Below, one piece after another: positions 1,849-13,322 of a stretch of DNA of 23,696 bases; within the stretch, counting starts at the first letter, position 1; the number at the start of each line of letters is the position of its first letter. Where the stretch lies: the IMG/VR virus record IMGVR_UViG_3300010370_000251, positions 1 through 23,696 of that record; one strand, 5' to 3'. The notes under the pieces were generated by a model, which saw nothing but the letters and a program-made list of their open reading frames with translations, searched no databases and was not told the DNA's origin. The stretch comes from a virus. The position numbers were made by a program, and so were the translations under genes.

Positions 1849-2072
1849 TACTTATCTCCCATCAACTGTTCTGGTGTACCGTCGTGCCAGTACACACTTT
1901 CGTAACGATGCTCAAAGTTCACCTGATCGAGATTGCGTCCTGCTGGCTTGACCCAGTAACCATCATCACGAAACGTGACGTACTTGTGGTGCTGGTACTT
2001 GCCATCGGCGTACTTCATGCCTTGCTTCATCGCCATCCTTAGCAGGATTGCTGCCTCTCGCTTTGTTATCAT
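1848..2072 (-). CDS. Small hypothetical protein of the early operon
   Basis: The product is a 74-residue soluble protein starting MITKREAAILL. It is rich in Tyr, His and Trp in its second half (KYQHHKYVTF, RYESVYWHDGT). I do not recognise a family. The start was set at ATG 2072 rather than the upstream TTG at 2087 because GGAGGT lies 6 nt before this ATG and the ATGA overlaps the stop of the Tad2-like gene. No membrane segment, metal-binding cluster or HTH is evident. Its place between a Tad2-like gene and a Gam-like gene makes it a candidate for an early host-interaction factor, but that is only context. Confidence 0.7.
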   Translation of the reverse strand: MITKREAAILLRMAMKQGMKYADGKYQHHKYVTFRDDGYWVKPAGRNLDQVNFEHRYESVYWHDGTPEQLMGDK

Positions 2073-2287
2073 CTCACTACCTCCCAATCGTCTCTAACCT
2101 TCTGCGCTTCCTTGTCGTATATATCCACTACAGGTGGGCAATATGTAGCCCGGTTACCTGATGGTAGATGCATGACAAGATGGTTTTCACCGATAGCTGA
2201 GAGCCTGACAACTTTGCCAGACTCCCAAGCCATCCTCCTTATAGCCATACCCTCAAACAACCGAGGATAAACCTGCCCGAATGTCAT
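2069..2287 (-). CDS. DUF2829/Tad2-like protein, early operon copy
   Basis: This 72-residue protein has the DUF2829 pattern end to end: MTFGQ at the start, a short helix, LFEGMAIRRMAW, a central beta region, and a C-terminal D-I-(x)n-DDWEVVR. DUF2829 contains Tad2, a phage protein that sequesters the glycocyclic ADP-ribose signal of Thoeris defence; related proteins also bind other cyclic nucleotides. The ATG at 2287 forms an ATGA overlap with the XF1762-family gene, so a longer upstream start is rejected. It is closest to the 10492 copy: both have IRR-x-x-W near the N-terminus and end in an R-DDWEV-R tail. Expression from the strong early promoter at 3790-3818 fits an anti-defence role. Ligand binding is inferred from the family. 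Confidence 0.75.
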   Translation of the reverse strand: MTFGQVYPRLFEGMAIRRMAWESGKVVRLSAIGENHLVMHLPSGNRATYCPPVVDIYDKEAQKVRDDWEVVR

Positions 2288-2739
2288 TGATTCAAAACCT
2301 TTATATATTTGTACTTGCGCTCTGTTGGCTGGTCTGTCCTGCGTGGCTTGCCTTTGGTGTGTATCCACTGCCCCCCCCCGCAAGCACCAACGCCAACCCA
2401 TCCAGATGCTTTGAGGCTTGTGCCTGTCTCGCTTTCCAAGATGTAGGTTTGTATAGACTTATAACCAAGTTCTTTACCGACACGAGCAGCTGCGCCATAA
2501 AGACATGAGCAGGCATTCTTTGTGCCGTCAGTCACACAGCGTGTAACCTCTAATACTTCTCTGTAATCAACCAAGCGGGCAACTGGTCTGCCAATGATGG
2601 CTGCACCGTGAAGGTTTCCATCTTCATCTATACACCCAATGCTGAAGCGGTGACCAACTACAGGCTTATGGTGGCGGTGGTGTTCCGCCACATAAGCATT
2701 TGCATCCTTCAACTCAAGAGGGATGATTTTTAATTTCAT
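2284..2739 (-). CDS. XF1762-family phage protein (GNAT-like)
   Basis: The 151-residue product carries the signature of this phage family: LKDANAYVAEHHRHHKPVVGHRF is reached by residue 31, followed by SIGCIDEDG, IIGRPVARLVDYREVLEVTR (49-67) and DGTKNACSCLYGAAARVGKELGY. The fold resembles a GNAT acyltransferase, but the biochemical role is unknown to me. The ATG at 2739 overlaps the ERF stop (ATGA), and its own stop overlaps the ATG of the Tad2-like gene, so translation is probably coupled. Residues Gly121-123 are encoded by nine consecutive G bases (2371-2379 on the plus strand as C), a tract prone to slippage; a one-base change would alter the last 30 residues and the coupling to the next gene. 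Confidence 0.8.
   Translation of the reverse strand: MKLKIIPLELKDANAYVAEHHRHHKPVVGHRFSIGCIDEDGNLHGAAIIGRPVARLVDYREVLEVTRCVTDGTKNACSCLYGAAARVGKELGYKSIQTYILESETGTSLKASGWVGVGACGGGQWIHTKGKPRRTDQPTERKYKYIKVLNQ
2371..2379 (-). repeat. Homopolymeric G9 tract inside the XF1762-family gene
   Basis: Nine consecutive C on the plus strand (G on the coding strand) encode three glycines. It is the longest homopolymer noticed in the window. It could be a slippage-prone contingency tract or simply a spot with elevated sequencing error; the reading frame is intact as given. Confidence 0.85.
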
Positions 2740-3818: not shown

Positions 3819-3828
3819 TGGCTTGACA
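3813..3828. promoter_or_regulatory. Palindromic operator formed by two back-to-back -35 boxes
   Basis: TGTCAA-tggc-TTGACA is a perfect 6-bp inverted repeat with a 4-bp centre. Each arm is the -35 box of one of the two divergent promoters, so a dimer bound here would block both. The adjacent Cro/CI-type gene at 3860 is the likely binder; this is inferred from position and symmetry. Confidence 0.6.
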
Positions 3829-3859: not shown

Positions 3860-4084
3860 ATGATTAGAGGACTTACACAACAGGAGCTGGCACGTAGGAC
3901 TGGTTTTACCCAGCCACGAATCAGTGACTATATGACAGGCAAAAAGGCTCCGGGTGATACCAGCCTTCTCAAGCTCGCAGAGGCGATGGATATGGATCCT
4001 GCGGAACTCAGCAAGCAGTTGATGCTACGAAGGACACTCCGCAAAGGCAAAGCACCGGAACAACCAGAAGTACCGGGCGAATAG
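3860..4084 (+). CDS. Cro/CI-type helix-turn-helix regulator
   Basis: This 74-residue protein is essentially one HTH domain: LTQQELARRTGFTQPRISDYMTGKKAPGDTSLLKLAEAMDM (residues 5-45) has the classic Xre-family spacing, with helix 2 at QQELARRTG and the recognition helix at QPRISDYMTG. The C-terminal 20 residues are basic then Pro-rich and probably disordered. There is no peptidase or dimerisation domain of the lambda CI type, so SOS-induced self-cleavage is unlikely. It is transcribed away from the early operon, and the palindrome at 3813-3828 overlaps both promoters, so it probably represses the early operon and itself. It heads a plus-strand group with the sigma factor. Confidence 0.88.
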   Translation: MIRGLTQQELARRTGFTQPRISDYMTGKKAPGDTSLLKLAEAMDMDPAELSKQLMLRRTLRKGKAPEQPEVPGE

Positions 4085-4111: not shown

Positions 4112-4420
4112 ATGCGACGATGCAACGATTGTGCGAACAGTGTAGTAGATAGTGATGCAGTGTGTACGGCTTGCCGTTTGGCTGAGTGGAAGGATCAGCA
4201 ACAACAGGCAGAGGCAGAGCGCCAAAGACAATATGCGCTGGAGGCTAATAGGGCTGCATATCTTGCCAAGAAGAAGTATATGCGTGATGCGATCAAGGCT
4301 GGTGTTATCACTGCGGTATCGGTTCTGCTTTTCTTGGCTTTCGTTAGTGCCACCCGTGATGCAATGCGGTACGAATGGGAAACCAAGCCAGCACTACTCA
4401 AAGCCAATGGAGTTAAGTGA
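4112..4420 (+). CDS. Zinc-ribbon protein with one transmembrane segment
   Basis: Four cysteines (Cys4, Cys7, Cys18, Cys21; CNDC and CTAC) form a likely zinc ribbon at the N-terminus. Next comes a charged Gln/Glu/Arg-rich helix (about 25-58, probably coiled coil), then one hydrophobic segment (about 63-81, GVITAVSVLLFLAFVSA) and a short tail. The product would be a membrane-anchored cytoplasmic zinc ribbon with the tail outside, or the reverse. No family with a known function is recognised. ATG 4112 has GGAGATAAGAGACA in front; the stop overlaps the GTG of the sigma gene (GTGA), so the two are probably co-translated. Confidence 0.75.
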   Translation: MRRCNDCANSVVDSDAVCTACRLAEWKDQQQQAEAERQRQYALEANRAAYLAKKKYMRDAIKAGVITAVSVLLFLAFVSATRDAMRYEWETKPALLKANGVK

Positions 4421-5235
4421 CACCAAGTAGAACAACCATCAGACAGACGCTCCGGACCCTACAAAGGACACCGGAGCGTTTGTTGTCTCACGATGAGATG
4501 GTACTGCTCCACTCTGGCTGGAAGCACGGCATCATGCAGACAGAGTGCCTAGATGCCATGGTGCGTCATAACATGGGTTTTATTCGTGAGGTCTGCAAGG
4601 TCATCAAGCACAAGGAACACTTTGTGGATGCCTGCCAGTACTGCGTCGAGGGCTTGATTAGAGCAATCGAAAAGTGGGAGCCAGAGCGTGGGTTGCGCTT
4701 CTCGACTTACGCTCATCCGTGGATCTATCAGAAGCTCAGGCGTTATCAGTCTAACCAATACAGAACCATCCGGATTGCCGAACACGCACTTGTAAAATGG
4801 CACAAACTCAAGCGTCATTACGTCATCCTAGAACTCGAATTAAAGCGACCACCGACAGATGAGGAACTATCCGAGCGCAGCGGGATGAGCCTTGAAACCA
4901 TTGACATATGCCGTACCGCAGCAGGCATTGAGCCTGTCAGCATGGACACCCCGGTACAAGGTTCTGAGCTGGTCTTGGGCGATACTGCGGTATTCGGTAG
5001 CACACCATCAGCTGAGGATGAGTACTTTAGCGAGCAGGAAGGTACGCTGTCCGATGCCCTGCTTAGACTCGATGAAGAAACCCGGCAGATGTTAGTGCTG
5101 CATTATGGCTTAGATGGGCGTGTACCGCAGACAATCCACATGGTAGCCAGTCGTTACAGAATGCCACCCGTAGTGGTCAAAGAACGCATCAACAAAGCAT
5201 TGCAGGAACTTAGGAGCATCCATGAAGCATCTTGA
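4417..5235 (+). CDS. Phage-encoded sigma-70 family RNA polymerase sigma factor
   Basis: The 272-residue product has sigma regions 2 to 4 without region 1.1. Region 2 is at about 47-110 (VRHNMGFIREVCKVI, then DACQYCVEGLIRAIEKWEPERGLRFSTYAHPWIYQKLRR). Region 3 (about 115-180) begins RTIRIAEH, and region 4 is at about 212-268 (LLRLDEETRQMLVLHYGLDG, with a C-terminal HTH). Against E. coli RpoD region 2.4 (YATWWIRQAITR) the phage has YAHPWIYQKLRR: the first melting Trp is Pro and the position of T440, which helps read the first -10 base, is Arg. This suggests altered -10 specificity; late genes here carry GATACT rather than TATAAT. The start is GTG with a 4-base overlap. The stop overlaps the next gene by 14 bases. 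Confidence 0.88.
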   Translation: MTPSRTTIRQTLRTLQRTPERLLSHDEMVLLHSGWKHGIMQTECLDAMVRHNMGFIREVCKVIKHKEHFVDACQYCVEGLIRAIEKWEPERGLRFSTYAHPWIYQKLRRYQSNQYRTIRIAEHALVKWHKLKRHYVILELELKRPPTDEELSERSGMSLETIDICRTAAGIEPVSMDTPVQGSELVLGDTAVFGSTPSAEDEYFSEQEGTLSDALLRLDEETRQMLVLHYGLDGRVPQTIHMVASRYRMPPVVVKERINKALQELRSIHEAS

Positions 5236-8264: not shown

Positions 8265-8633
8265 ATGGATATTGAGTTTTTGACGTGGAGCCAACTGAAG
8301 CAACGTGCTGAACTGGATCGCAAGCAGAATGGCAAAAAGTATGACCATGAACTTGACGTGGCTATTGCATGGCTTCAAGATGGTCACCGCTTGACATTCC
8401 ATAGGTGGGCTATGCGGCGAGACTTTGAAACGCATCTAATCCTTGAAGGCGATACCGTGCTAATCGTTGAGTGTGATGGCGCTCGTGGTTCATTCTGCCG
8501 TCTCAACGACTTGACCTACGATGAGTTTCTATTGATTCCTGCATCTCATGAAATCGGAGAACATACGCCATACCCTGCATGGATTTATGGCGAGCTTGAA
8601 GTTCCACAGATGCGCTTGAAAAATAATGTTTGA
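8265..8633 (+). CDS. Hypothetical protein with possible Tad2-like core
   Basis: This is a 122-residue soluble protein. Residues about 30-93 recall DUF2829: a helix then WLQDGHRLTFHRWAM, beta strands (THLILEGDTVLIVECDG), and LTYDEFLLIP where family members usually have the D-x-L-x-x-DWE end. The match is weak because the Trp-Glu end is missing. N- and C-terminal extensions (30 residues each) are not recognised. ATG 8265 is preceded by AAGGAATAAAGACA. A promoter -35 overlaps its stop codon, so it ends one transcription unit and the next begins there. Confidence 0.65.
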   Translation: MDIEFLTWSQLKQRAELDRKQNGKKYDHELDVAIAWLQDGHRLTFHRWAMRRDFETHLILEGDTVLIVECDGARGSFCRLNDLTYDEFLLIPASHEIGEHTPYPAWIYGELEVPQMRLKNNV

Positions 8634-8659
8634 CATCTGATACCCGATGGGTATATATT
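8630..8659 (+). promoter_or_regulatory. Promoter with operator-like palindrome in its spacer
   Basis: TTGACA (8630-8635) overlaps the TGA stop of the 8265 gene. A -10 is available as TATATA (8652-8657, spacing 16) or TATATT (8654-8659, spacing 18). The spacer contains the 15-base palindrome ATACCC-gat-GGGTAT (8640-8654), placed where a repressor would block polymerase. It would drive the SSB-like gene and downstream accessory genes. Confidence 0.7.
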
Positions 8660-8709: not shown

Positions 8710-9201
8710 ATGGGTTTTTTTGCACAGCATGGTTCCTTCTCTGAGGGAACTGGTCGGAAGTTCAGCGTAGCTGAATCCGGCGTTTACATCTGCGCTTTGA
8801 TTGACATCGAAGCAGTACAGGGAAAGTCTTACGACGATCCAACAGTCCTGGAACCAAACTATCGGTTTGTATTCGAGACCACTGAGGTTGGTGATGAAGA
8901 CGGTCAACCCTTCCGGTTCGTACAGTTCACCAAGACGGTCTACGGCAATGAGAAAGCCAAGCTCACGATTCTTTTGGATTCCATGCTCGGCAAACGTCTT
9001 GACCGTAACGAATACGCAAACCTTGACATCACCGCTTTGAAGTCGCAGAAGTGGCAGGTTGTGGTCGGTACACGTCAGAAACTCAATGGCGAATACACGA
9101 ACATGATCGAGACGGTCAAGCCTGTAAAGCAGACTGCTACAAAGCCACTGAAAAAAGTAGTGCAGGAAGATATCACCGATCCGTTTGAAGATGGTGCGTA
9201 G
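8710..9201 (+). CDS. Putative single-stranded DNA-binding-like phage protein
   Basis: The 163-residue product has the layout of small phage OB-fold proteins often found beside replication genes. A core of beta strands (residues about 18-120: SGVYICALIDIEAV, NYRFVFETTEV, FRFVQFTKTVYG, AKLTILLDSMLG, KWQVVVGTRQK) is followed by a flexible Lys/Thr-rich linker. An acidic tip (DITDPFEDGA) recalls the C-terminal tails of SSB proteins. It probably coats single strands or serves the helicase/primase. The ATG at 8710 has AAAGGAG 7 nt upstream and its own promoter at 8630. Pairwise similarity to bacterial SSB is not visible by eye, so a DUF669-type phage protein is an equally good label. Confidence 0.6.
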   Translation: MGFFAQHGSFSEGTGRKFSVAESGVYICALIDIEAVQGKSYDDPTVLEPNYRFVFETTEVGDEDGQPFRFVQFTKTVYGNEKAKLTILLDSMLGKRLDRNEYANLDITALKSQKWQVVVGTRQKLNGEYTNMIETVKPVKQTATKPLKKVVQEDITDPFEDGA

Positions 9202-9845: not shown

Positions 9846-10101
9846 ACCATATTCAATTTATGAAACTAGGTTAGAGCAATGCCGTAAAACCATAATGCAT
9901 GAACTGACATTGAATAATGGATGCGTAGCAACAAGTACATTCAAATATCTTGTACTCAATCAAGGATTTCCGATTGCTACTTATCAACGTGCATTGAAAT
10001 CTTTAGCAGATGAAAAACGCATCTTTACAAGACGTGGATCATTGCAATATGTGGTTTTACTAGAGAACCACTCGGAGGCACTCAATGCCACGACCAAGTG
10101 A
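9832..10101 (+). CDS. Small AT-rich gene, possible winged-helix protein
   Basis: The 89-residue product has a helical N-terminus and then a pattern suggestive of a winged helix: STFKYLVLNQGFPIATYQRALKSLADEKRIFTRRGSLQYVVLLEN, where the last part would be the beta wing. No named family is recognised. The gene is AT-richer than its neighbours (20 of 60 bases G+C in 9901-9960), which suggests separate acquisition. It overlaps the genes on both sides, so it is translated within the operon. It directly precedes the HTH-Tad2 fusion gene. Confidence 0.65.
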   Translation: METPKPYSIYETRLEQCRKTIMHELTLNNGCVATSTFKYLVLNQGFPIATYQRALKSLADEKRIFTRRGSLQYVVLLENHSEALNATTK

Positions 10102-10495
10102 GACAGCCCTAACAGGCATTGCCAAGAGACAAAAACTACTAGACAGGTTTGACGAGTTATGCGATCAAGGTATGAGCCACGATACAGCTGCACGAACCAT
10201 AGGCTACAACCCGACAACCGTAGGACGCTGGCTCAAAGAGCGTGAGGTCTACCGACAAAAAGACGATGATGCACGAAGGCTTACCCTTGCAGGTGGCTCA
10301 TTCTCAGCAGCACTTGAAAGACTCCGAGCAGGACATCTTGTACACAGACGTGGGGCTTCATGGTTCCTTCAGATTGTAGATGGCAAGATATGCCTGTACA
10401 TGGTTGATGGTGCTGGTAACCGTAGATTCATCCGGGTTGCCACCTTTGGTTCTGCTGATGTGCTAGCAATGGACTGGGAAGTATTCATCGGATGA
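10085..10495 (+). CDS. HTH domain fused to a DUF2829/Tad2-like domain
   Basis: The 136-residue product has two parts. Residues about 15-56 (RQKLLDRFDELCDQGMSHDTAARTIGYNPTTVGRWLKE) form a homeodomain-like helix-turn-helix of the kind found in small terminases and transposase-type regulators. Residues 72-134 carry the DUF2829 pattern: SFSAALERLRAGHLVHRRG, several beta strands, then SADVLAMDWEVF. This C-terminal half is the closest to the family consensus in the window. A DNA-binding domain joined to a family whose best-known member binds a cyclic nucleotide suggests a ligand-responsive regulator, but this is inference. It overlaps the gene before and the Tad2-like gene after (ATGA), and begins a run of three consecutive Tad2-like genes. 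Confidence 0.75.
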   Translation: MPRPSETALTGIAKRQKLLDRFDELCDQGMSHDTAARTIGYNPTTVGRWLKEREVYRQKDDDARRLTLAGGSFSAALERLRAGHLVHRRGASWFLQIVDGKICLYMVDGAGNRRFIRVATFGSADVLAMDWEVFIG

Positions 10496-10698
10496 GATTC
10501 GAGCAAGCATACCGATGGCTAAGGCGTGGCAAGTGTATACGCCGAACTGGTTGGGCTTCCTGCTGCCATATAGAGCACTCACAAGGCGAGCAGGTAAGAC
10601 ACTACAACGGTAGACGATGGCAAGGGTATACCCTTCTAATGCGAGATCTATTTGATGACGAAGGACAACCAAGGGATGACTGGGAGGTAATGAGATGA
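10492..10698 (+). CDS. DUF2829/Tad2-like protein, copy 2 of the cluster
   Basis: The 68-residue product matches DUF2829 across its length: MRFEQAYRWLRRGKCIRRTGW, a short beta region, then LLMRDLFDDEGQPRDDWEVMR. It is closest to the minus-strand early copy at 2069-2287 (shared IRR-x-x-W and the DDWEV-R end) despite lying on the other strand 8 kb away. Tad2 proteins work as oligomers that bind nucleotide signals; a short protein like this could be such a sponge. The ATG overlaps the preceding stop (ATGA). The first ten bases, ATGAGATTCG, are identical to the start of the next gene, a sign of duplication. Confidence 0.78.
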   Translation: MRFEQAYRWLRRGKCIRRTGWASCCHIEHSQGEQVRHYNGRRWQGYTLLMRDLFDDEGQPRDDWEVMR

Positions 10699-10934
10699 GA
10701 TTCGGAGATGTAGTACAAGCCTTGATGGCTGGTGGTGGTAACGCAGTATGGCGAGAAGACTGGGGAGGCTCAGTATTCCTGCGGTATTCCGAACTGTGGA
10801 ATGTCTTTGAACTGCATGGACCTAAGGGACGGGTAACACAGCTGGAAGAGTTGAGCCTATCCCCTGGTGATTTGTTTGCTAACGACTGGGCACTGGTTGC
10901 CATTGATCCACAGAGCGGATGGGTGAAACAATGA
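10695..10934 (+). CDS. DUF2829/Tad2-like protein, copy 3 of the cluster
   Basis: The 79-residue product begins MRFGDVVQALMAGGGNAVWREDWGG, continues with beta strands (VFLRYSELWNVFELHG) and ends SPGDLFANDWALVAID, keeping the D-L-x-A-x-DW core of DUF2829. Wre-x-x-W replaces the usual R-x-x-W. It is clearly related to but diverged from the gene before it, so the two may bind different ligands or form mixed oligomers. ATGA overlaps join it to the genes on both sides. The 13-residue C-terminal tail after the family core is not conserved in the other copies. Confidence 0.72.
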   Translation: MRFGDVVQALMAGGGNAVWREDWGGSVFLRYSELWNVFELHGPKGRVTQLEELSLSPGDLFANDWALVAIDPQSGWVKQ

Positions 10935-11230
10935 TGATTGATAGAGCTATTCTTGCATTACTAAATGGTAAGGCAATAAGACGCAAAATAGCACCTGATG
11001 GATGGTTTGCTTTGGATCAGACCACAAAAGAAGAGCGATCATTGGTTGGTGATGTCGAATTGATGCGTCTAGTTGGTAAGGGTGGAGCCGAATACAACGG
11101 TTTGCGCCTAACTACAGAATGGATCTGCGCCACCGATTGGGAATGCGGACAACCAAATCGAAGAAATGGCTGGGGCATAGATTGGAATAATATAGTCGGT
11201 GACAAAGGACTGGAGGCAGATCCAAGATGA
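10931..11230 (+). CDS. Diverged DUF2829/Tad2-like protein, copy 4
   Basis: The 99-residue product starts MMIDRAILALLNGKAIRRKIAPDGWFALD, which fits the family N-terminus, and has LRLTTEWICATDWE at the position of the usual D-x-L-x-x-DWE. It has an inserted segment in the middle and a 25-residue tail (CGQPNRRNGWGIDWNN...) absent from other copies. ATG 10931 was chosen over 10919 because it gives the ATGA overlap used throughout this operon. Family membership is likely but weaker than for the two genes before it. Confidence 0.62.
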   Translation: MMIDRAILALLNGKAIRRKIAPDGWFALDQTTKEERSLVGDVELMRLVGKGGAEYNGLRLTTEWICATDWECGQPNRRNGWGIDWNNIVGDKGLEADPR

Positions 11231-11433
11231 TTATCTTTGCCCTTGGAATCCTGCTGGGCGCTGGGTGCTTGGCTGTCTACAATGAGATGTATACACGTTG
11301 GCTATACGCTGATGTCAAGAGACGAGCGAAACAGCAAGGCATCACAGAACGTCAAATGAAAGATGCCCTCATATGGGCAACCAAAGAAGAAATTGAGGCT
11401 AACCTAAATGCCAGCACAACCCGGAGCAGGTAG
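11227..11433 (+). CDS. Small membrane protein with N-terminal anchor
   Basis: This 68-residue protein begins with a hydrophobic segment (MIIFALGILLGAGCLAVY, residues 1-18), then a charged helix (YADVKRRAKQQGITERQMKDALIWATKEEIEANL). It would be anchored in the membrane with a cytoplasmic tail. No family is recognised and no convincing lipobox is present. It overlaps the gene before it (ATGA) and terS after it by 26 bases. Small anchored peptides like this in phage accessory regions are often exclusion or host-interaction factors, but there is no direct evidence here. Confidence 0.65.
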   Translation: MIIFALGILLGAGCLAVYNEMYTRWLYADVKRRAKQQGITERQMKDALIWATKEEIEANLNASTTRSR

Positions 11434-11773
11434 ACCAACAAAGTATAAACCGGAGACGGTAGAGAAGATTCTAGAGGCTCTGCGAGGTGGTAACACCCGC
11501 AGGGCTTCCTGTGCTGTTGCCGATGTTTCGCAGGATAGCCTAGCCCTTTGGCTTAGGATTTATCCCGAATTTGCGGAAGCAGTAGAAAAAGCAGAAGGCA
11601 AAGCCGAAGCTAAGATGGTTTCAATCATTCGTGATGCTTCCGAAACAACATGGCAGGCGGCTGCATGGTGGCTAGAACGGAAGCACAAAGCCGAGTGGTC
11701 TAGCAGGGTAGAACAGACCGGCGCAGACGGTAGCCCAGTAAAGGTAATCGTGGAGTACGCAGACAAACCATGA
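11408..11773 (+). CDS. terS: Terminase small subunit
   Basis: The 121-residue product matches phage small terminase proteins: basic N-terminus with GAGRPTKYKPETVEKILEAL, a helix-turn-helix (SCAVADVSQDSLALWLRIYPEFAEAVEKAE), a helical oligomerisation part (KAEAKMVSIIRDASETTWQAAAWWLERKHKAEWS) and a beta-like C-terminus (SPVKVIVEYADKP) that could contact the large subunit. It would recognise the packaging site and hand DNA to the large subunit. Unusually the large subunit gene does not follow directly; a 372-base Tad2-like gene lies between. ATG 11408 sits inside the preceding small membrane-protein gene. Confidence 0.82.
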   Translation: MPAQPGAGRPTKYKPETVEKILEALRGGNTRRASCAVADVSQDSLALWLRIYPEFAEAVEKAEGKAEAKMVSIIRDASETTWQAAAWWLERKHKAEWSSRVEQTGADGSPVKVIVEYADKP

Positions 11774-12141: not shown

Positions 12142-13322
12142 TGCCTGATATACGATTGGTTCTCCCTCGACCACATGAAGGACAAAAGGTAATACTGGCA
12201 CAGGCAAGGCGATACAACGTCCTTGCCTGTGGCTGAGTAGGTAGACGCTTTGGTAAAACAACACTCGGCGGTAATTTACTTTCCGACCCTATCCTAAAAG
12301 ATGCACTCCCTTGTGCTTGGTTTGCGCCTACCTACAGGCTCCTAGAAGAGGCATACAACGATCACAAGCGCATCTATCAGCCTGTGATACGGCGAGCTGT
12401 GCAGACTCCTGCTCCACGCATTGAACTGATTACCGGGGCGGCTATTGATTACTGGACTCTTGATGACCCATCAACCGTTGCCCGTGGTCGTAAGTACAAG
12501 CGGGTAATCATCGATGAAGCCGCCATGGCTAGGCATCTAGAACAAGCCTGGACGGAAGCCATCCGCCCAACACTAACAGACTACAAGGGCGATGCTTTCT
12601 TTCTGTCTACGCCCAAGGGCTCTAACTACTTCAAGATCTTGTACGGCATGGCTGGTGCAGATCCGGACTGGATGGCATGGCAGATGCCTACTACCGCTAA
12701 CCCTTGGATAGATGCTACGGAAGTAGACAAGGCTGGAGAGTCTCTGCCGAGCATCGCATTTCGTCAGGAATACCTAGCGGAGTTCGTTGATGCGGCTGGT
12801 GCTCGTATCAAGCGTGAGTGGTTGCGCTATGGTGATTGCCCTGAAGGCTTGCCCACCTACATCGGCGTTGACCTTGCAATCAGTACCAAGAGTGAAGCCG
12901 ACTACACCGGGGTGGCTGTTGTATCCCGTGGTGAAGATGGCACGATCTACGTTAGAGACATCAACCGGACTCGTGCTGACTTTGCTTCTGTGCTACGCTT
13001 CATCGAGGCCATGGCTGAAAAGTGGAAACCCACCATGATTGGCATCGAGCAGGTGCAATATCAGGCGGCTGTTGTGCAAGAGCTTCTTAGACGTACCAAA
13101 CTGCCTATTCGGGGAATACGCCCAGACCGTGACAAAGTGACCCGCTTTGCGCCTCTGGAAGCCCGGTACGAACAATCACAGGTTATGCACTGCCAAGGGC
13201 TCCCGGCTTACTTTGAGGATGAGTTGTTATCCTTCCCAGTTGGTAGGCATGATGACGTGGTGGACGCTCTGGCTTATGCTTGGCAGGTATGCGGATCAAA
13301 GCGCGGTTGGGGTGCAGTCTAG
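12141..13322 (+). CDS. terL: Terminase large subunit, interrupted by in-frame UGA at the P-loop
   Basis: The packaging ATPase/nuclease is encoded in one frame from ATG 12141 to TAG 13320-13322, except for TGA 12234-12236. N-terminal residues read IRLVLPRPHEGQ...RYNVLACG, then TGA GTA, then GRRFGKTTLGG (Walker A, 12240-12272). Later motifs are intact: Walker B VIIDEAA (12504-12524), C-motif region FFLSTPKGS, RNase H-like nuclease acids in YIGVDLAI (Asp at 12870), IGIEQVQY (Glu at 13047) and RHDDVVDALAYAW near the end. Removing nine bases (12234-12242) gives LACGRRFGKTT, the usual terminase form. Stops also lie in the other two frames here. It is therefore a broken gene, a recoded gene or a sequence error. 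GTG 12384 could restart translation but would omit the P-loop. Confidence 0.8.
12199..12231 (+). other. 11-bp perfect hairpin abutting the terL stop
   Basis: CACAGGCAAGG (12199-12209) and CCTTGCCTGTG (12221-12231) pair perfectly around an 11-nt loop. The last paired base is the first base of the GGC codon that precedes the in-frame TGA (12234). It lies wholly within coding sequence and has no T-run, so it is not a terminator. It may be a recoding signal or a relic of insertion. Confidence 0.7.

Follow-up and report, generated by a model that had tools for sequence, protein, structure and literature searches.

In one gene of a stretch of viral DNA of 23,696 nucleotides (the whole of which is referred to below as the window), a domain of the Tad2-like type is joined to a helix-turn-helix (HTH) domain. 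Domains of this type are commonly interpreted as sponges that counter host defence, and the locus raises the question of what one does behind a predicted DNA-binding head. The first-pass annotation, made from the sequence alone, had suggested a one-component regulator that might respond to a host immune signal by switching phage genes.

The fusion gene and its relatives

The fusion gene, its parts and the other Tad2-like genes of the window are as follows.

10085..10495, plus strand: HTH-Tad2-like fusion gene, 136 aa, an intact open reading frame
10127..10252, plus strand: predicted HTH domain, residues 15-56 (HTH_23 match, model helices, TnpE HTH at Z 6.0)
10298..10486, plus strand: predicted Tad2/AcrIIA7-fold domain, residues 72-134 (PF11195 match, model, structural and profile comparison)
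10406..10423, plus strand: DGAGNR loop, residues 108-113 (alignments of both fusion clades)
10492..10698, plus strand: standalone Tad2-like gene with an ATGA overlap with the fusion gene (PF11195 match)
10695..10934, plus strand: standalone Tad2-like gene, the top-scoring PF11195 match of the window (hmmscan)
10919..11230, plus strand: divergent Tad2-like gene (E=1.7e-5 to the local profile; without a Pfam match)
2069..2401, minus strand: further standalone Tad2-like gene, apart from the run (PF11195 match)

Residues 25-51 of the fusion protein matched the Pfam family HTH_23 (E=0.0011), and residues 72-133 matched the Tad2-like family PF11195 (E=0.0013, 19.6 bits, profile positions 2-72 of 73). 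Both matches are below the gathering scores, which for PF11195 is a cut-off of 25 bits. The two families were also matched in all 25 aligned relatives of the same clade (clade 1, below), HTH_23 again at sub-threshold scores. Together with the predicted fold described in the next section, these matches confirm that an HTH at about residues 15-56 and a C-terminal Tad2-like domain lie in one open reading frame. The gene had been taken for the best DUF2829 match of the window, which was wrong: three genes outscore it, at 10695-10934 (24.9 bits), at 2069-2401 on the minus strand (22.7 bits) and at 10492-10698 (20.4 bits). As had been noticed, it is the first of a run of Tad2-like genes, followed by those at 10492 and 10695 and then by the divergent 10919. 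An ATGA stop-start overlap of the fusion gene with the next gene was found in the window and in 69 of 76 relatives.

A search for the same fusion in other phages returned 42 loci in viral contigs that encode the protein, mostly at full length and with 50-66% identity, one being at 100% (clade 1). An alignment-based scan of viral contigs found two further loci that matched residues 72-133 only, which led to a second clade of 26 members at the same locus (clade 2). Between the clades, the alignment is confined to the C-terminal 65 residues (45% identity, profile E=1.5e-13). The clade 2 N-terminus has no recognisable relationship to that of clade 1, being either unrelated or very diverged. AlphaFold models this region with short helices. 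It had no Pfam HTH match, so that DNA binding by the clade 2 N-terminus would be a weakly supported proposal. Two scans of the bacterial and archaeal genomes of GTDB found no relatives of the fusion, and named phages gave chance-level matches only, the match in Vibrio spanning two annotated genes. Thus, the group that bears the fusion appears to consist of uncultured phages.

Two neighbours are used in what follows.

8710..9201, plus strand: conserved neighbour gene (cluster c7), the handle for locus sampling
11408..11773, plus strand: terminase small subunit (TerS), distinct from the fusion gene (phrog_4102, 5e-28)

Contigs were sampled via the gene at 8710, independently of the fusion, and enough downstream sequence was required. 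The fusion was present in 72 of the 73 contigs sampled in this way, as clade 1 in 38 and as clade 2 in 34, and never as both. A gene so rarely missing behaves as part of the core and not as a patchy accessory. Purifying selection acts on both halves (median pairwise dN/dS, or omega, of about 0.11-0.14), and mean identity within clade 1 is 0.83 for the Tad2-like half versus 0.54 for the HTH half.

ThyX, a name given from sequence and not by family search, is encoded downstream in 34 of 38 clade 1 contigs versus 3 of 34 clade 2 contigs (Fisher p ~2e-12, which overstates independence because the contigs are related); the window is an exception within clade 1, with no ThyX adjoining the fusion. 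One to five standalone Tad2-like genes lie nearby in 70 of the 71 contigs that also hold TerS, and these genes are mutually divergent and differ between contigs. At L041:4408-4956, the C-terminal half (109-181) of a 182-aa open frame matches PF11195. Separate genes in L028, L029 and L039 are similar to the N-terminal half of this frame, and its second part is a gene of its own in L039.

Predicted fold and comparison with known proteins

The fusion protein of the window was modelled as a monomer with AlphaFold2, using 25 sequences. The model (pLDDT 72) has helices at residues 6-27, 32-38 and 43-69, followed by a helix and five strands. Both this model and the monomer model of clade 2 are of moderate confidence (pLDDT 72-74, pTM 0.43-0.44). 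A direct Foldseek search with the window model gave no match at E<=0.001. When the Foldseek candidates were re-aligned with VIA-align, all ten Tad2/AcrIIA7 PDB entries that were listed took ranks 1-10, with Z of 6.5-7.5, in a range (below 8) that may be incidental with this tool, and with rmsd of 2.3-2.9 A over 59-62 residues. The rank after these was held by the HTH protein TnpE, aligned onto the N-terminus (Z 6.0). With the clade 2 model, the same ten Tad2/AcrIIA7 entries were on top (Z 8.7-10.1, rmsd 1.8-2.1 A, 60-64 residues), the best unrelated entry having a Z of 5.8 and the next 3.3. The fold assignment comes from this re-alignment and is clearest for clade 2. In a profile-profile comparison, the fusion C-terminus matched the local standalone Tad2-like genes (E=1.7e-6, probability 90%), which in turn match solved Tad2/AcrIIA7 proteins with E of 4e-9 to 1.4e-6; the profile of the whole fusion had no match in a sequence search of the PDB. 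These comparisons support a predicted Tad2/AcrIIA7 fold for the C-terminal domain (71-135), in line with the fold on which the suggested regulator depended. At the N-terminus, the model points to a homeodomain-like HTH, with helices to about residue 60.

Could the fusion be an artefact, produced by the assembly-error joining of two genes or by chance profile matches? The individual Pfam scores, which lie below the gathering cut-offs, would fit with this. It is refuted, however, by the dozens of independent contigs that carry the same fusion, by the matches in 25 of 25 members and by the fold comparison, and we regard its probability as negligible.

The closest known systems to the fusion C-terminus are Tad2 (Thoeris anti-defence 2; SPO1 Gp34.65, ModTad2, SptTad2) and AcrIIA7/HgmTad2, of family PF11195. 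The Tad2 sponges are homotetramers that sequester gcADPR, His-ADPR or CDNs, with the gcADPR pockets lying between protomers. They have in common with the fusion domain an N-terminal helix, antiparallel strands and a C-terminal DW motif. Unlike them, the fusion domain is joined to an HTH, and it is minimal, with about 65 aa versus roughly 84-104 for Tad2/AcrIIA7. In an alignment with ModTad2, SptTad2 and AcrIIA7, both fusion clades lack the insertion that separates strands two and three in Tad2 and that has been linked to cyclic-dinucleotide binding (PMC12043709). Moreover, the RxxW motif that follows the first helix in solved Tad2 and in the standalone genes, where the W is invariant, is RxxA (A91) in all aligned fusions. 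Both fusion clades are most conserved at a near-invariant loop, DGAGNR, which the standalone Tad2-like genes do not have. Because automatic alignment with Tad2/AcrIIA7 sequences does not place this loop cleanly, we infer its position; it would fall at beta3-beta4, where AcrIIA7 has ADG. DGAGNR is our best candidate for a functional site, either as a ligand pocket or as an oligomer interface.

The gcADPR pocket of Tad2 is formed by the beta1-beta2, beta3-beta4 and beta4-alpha3 loops, strand beta4 and helix alpha3 (PMC12043709), and the putative position of DGAGNR would thus be in a loop that lines it. With the predicted fold, and with at least one standalone Tad2-like gene nearby in nearly all of the contigs, this speaks for a one-component sensor, in which the Tad2-like domain would bind an immune nucleotide (gcADPR, His-ADPR or similar), alter the affinity of the HTH for DNA and switch on the downstream counter-defence genes. 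We nevertheless consider such a sensor rather unlikely: the Tad2-like domain has neither the dinucleotide-binding insertion nor the RxxW motif, it is highly conserved and not diversifying, and the choice of clade goes with ThyX and not with a known defence gene.

In AcrIIA15, too, an N-terminal HTH precedes a domain of the anti-defence type. The N-terminal domain forms a dimer on the promoter of AcrIIA15 itself, and the C-terminal domain blocks Cas9 (PMC10901769), but the latter is a dsDNA mimic and does not have the Tad2 fold. The same order of parts suggests that the fusion could be an autoregulated anti-defence protein, with the Tad2-like domain inhibiting a host defence, as a sponge or in the manner of AcrIIA7, and the HTH repressing its own operon. 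In support of this, the best structural matches include AcrIIA7, and the gene sits among standalone Tad2-like genes. However, presence in 72 of 73 contigs together with strong conservation would be unusual for an arms-race inhibitor, and the ligand-binding features are missing, which leaves this possibility quite improbable in our view. The WYL transcription factors (CapW, BrxR, DriD) provide a second analogy, in that they combine an HTH with a sensing domain, as proposed for the fusion; in CapW, the ligand seems to act as a switch for DNA binding (PMC9122588). They belong to a different family, however, and are bacterial regulators and not the product of a phage core gene; chains of DriD, BrxR and PafBC were found in the clade 2 structural comparison with a low Z of 2.4-3.3, too weak a match for kinship.

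No report of a protein combining an HTH with Tad2 was found in the open-access literature. To that extent, the first-pass statement that no regulator of this type had been described still holds. It calls for qualification, since an HTH-anti-defence fusion with autorepression (AcrIIA15) and HTH-sensor proteins (WYL) are known. The fold of the fusion domain is a known one; its architecture is new.

The promoter-like site and the genes of the putative operon

The transcription unit that probably includes the fusion gene appears to start at the following site, which is conserved in relatives.

8630..8659, plus strand: promoter-like site TTGACA-18-TATATT, conserved, with the spacer dyad ATACCCGATGGGTAT at 8640-8654

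The palindrome at 8640, which had been named as a site to which the fusion might bind, is present, as a dyad in the spacer of a promoter-like site. Alone it is not exceptional, since the window has 57 perfect dyads with 6-bp arms, where a simple count would predict about 46. The dyad symmetry of the spacers was 5.48, versus 4.54 +/- 0.10 in shuffles, none of 500 of which reached it, the sequences compared being related. That the spacer is an operator tracking the HTH clade was considered and rejected: mean spacer identity was 0.53 between the clades and 0.53 and 0.54 within them, and identical spacers occur with both. As the spacer types are common to both clades, there is no sign that the fusion HTH is the specific binder of the dyad, and the product of an HTH gene at 3860-4084, judged Cro-like from its sequence, would be an equal candidate. 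Promoter-like sites at 3823, 5565 and 8630 have GGTATATA in common at -10 and carry TTGAC- -35 boxes, and a sigma-70-type factor is encoded at 4417-5235. No tRNA or Rfam family was found within the window.

The fusion gene adjoins DNA-metabolism genes and lies upstream of the genes for TerS and TerL, and the best PHROG match of its HTH is the TerS family phrog_4102 (2.7e-5), whose HTH is of a similar type. Possibly, then, the protein is a structural, replication or packaging accessory, in which the HTH would recognise phage DNA (a packaging or origin site, for example) and the Tad2-like fold would merely oligomerise. We think this improbable. The C-terminal half of the phrog_4102 TerS does not align with that of the fusion, these phages have a separate and complete TerS in the operon, and the profile similarity of the fusion to TerS is weak (E=0.0028, probability 11%). 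Two narrower proposals were rejected. The fusion is not itself the terminase small subunit, as residues 16-82 alone match phrog_4102, and weakly, and the true TerS is at 11408; nor is its HTH a duplicated TerS head, the similarity just cited being non-specific as well as weak.

A separate observation concerns the TerL frame, which runs from 12141/12144 to 13322 and has an in-frame TGA at 12234-12236. This codon, which ends other genes normally, lies within a 9-nt insertion just before the Walker A motif (NVLACG*VGRRFGKT). A hairpin, CACAGGCAAGG / CCTTGCCTGTG, at 12199-12231 (within the region 12199-12239) accompanies the insertion, and the two were found in many relatives (40 distinct contexts). 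In the L110, L091 and L156 groups the hairpin has compensatory changes, GGCGAGA / TCTCGCC. Mean fold energy is -25.7 vs -17.1. TerL without the insertion, in 50 contexts, reads NVLACGRRFGKT with no stop, and the hairpin is absent in those inspected. The hairpin and the TGA are candidates for a readthrough or ribosomal bypass element, or for a spreading element. A hop from GGC to GGT would give ACGRRFGKT; copies of the L003 type have GAT there.

Proposed role of the fusion protein

The explanation that we prefer, and to which we give about an even chance, is that the fusion protein is a DNA-binding regulator or autoregulator of its operon, with the Tad2-like fold as an oligomerisation or effector domain. 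The N-terminal HTH would bind DNA, and the minimal Tad2/AcrIIA7-fold domain would oligomerise the protein and would probably bind an effector, a small molecule or a protein, at the site marked by DGAGNR. The gene would be translationally coupled within an operon that extends from genes of DNA metabolism, by way of the standalone Tad2-like genes, as far as the terminase; its product would most likely regulate that operon or itself.

We infer DNA binding, co-transcription and regulation by the fusion protein from several lines of evidence. The two domains are kept together in the 42 relatives, and the 26 members of the second clade have an N-terminus modelled as short helices; Tad2/AcrIIA7 entries come first for both models, with TnpE aligned at the N-terminus of the window protein; the gene is nearly always present, with low omega and, in clade 1, a Tad2-like half of high identity; the ATGA overlap is widespread, and the conserved promoter upstream of the unit has a dyad symmetry above that of shuffles. 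There is also precedent in regulators with an HTH and an anti-defence domain. Against a regulator stand the moderate confidence of the models and the lack of a significant direct Foldseek match for that of the window, a promoter dyad that does not follow the HTH clade and that the Cro-like protein could bind, the clade 2 N-terminus without a Pfam HTH match, and the fact that an HTH may also serve packaging or replication. Of the regulator first suggested, it is the architecture that stands, a DNA-binding domain with a predicted Tad2-fold domain in a real, conserved core gene.

The two clades, with a related Tad2-like half and a divergent N-terminus, form a clean set for the study of DNA specificity and ligand. 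To annotate a protein as Tad2-like may not be enough to call it a sponge, since here the fold makes up one half of a conserved phage gene that is nearly always present and that has a predicted DNA-binding head. That the sponge fold has been re-used as the sensor of a one-component switch, with an immune or nucleotide-metabolism signal at DGAGNR controlling an operon for counter-defence and DNA metabolism, seems to us a long shot. If the Tad2-like domain does bind a signal, however, phages would be seen not only to soak up immunity but also to sense it.
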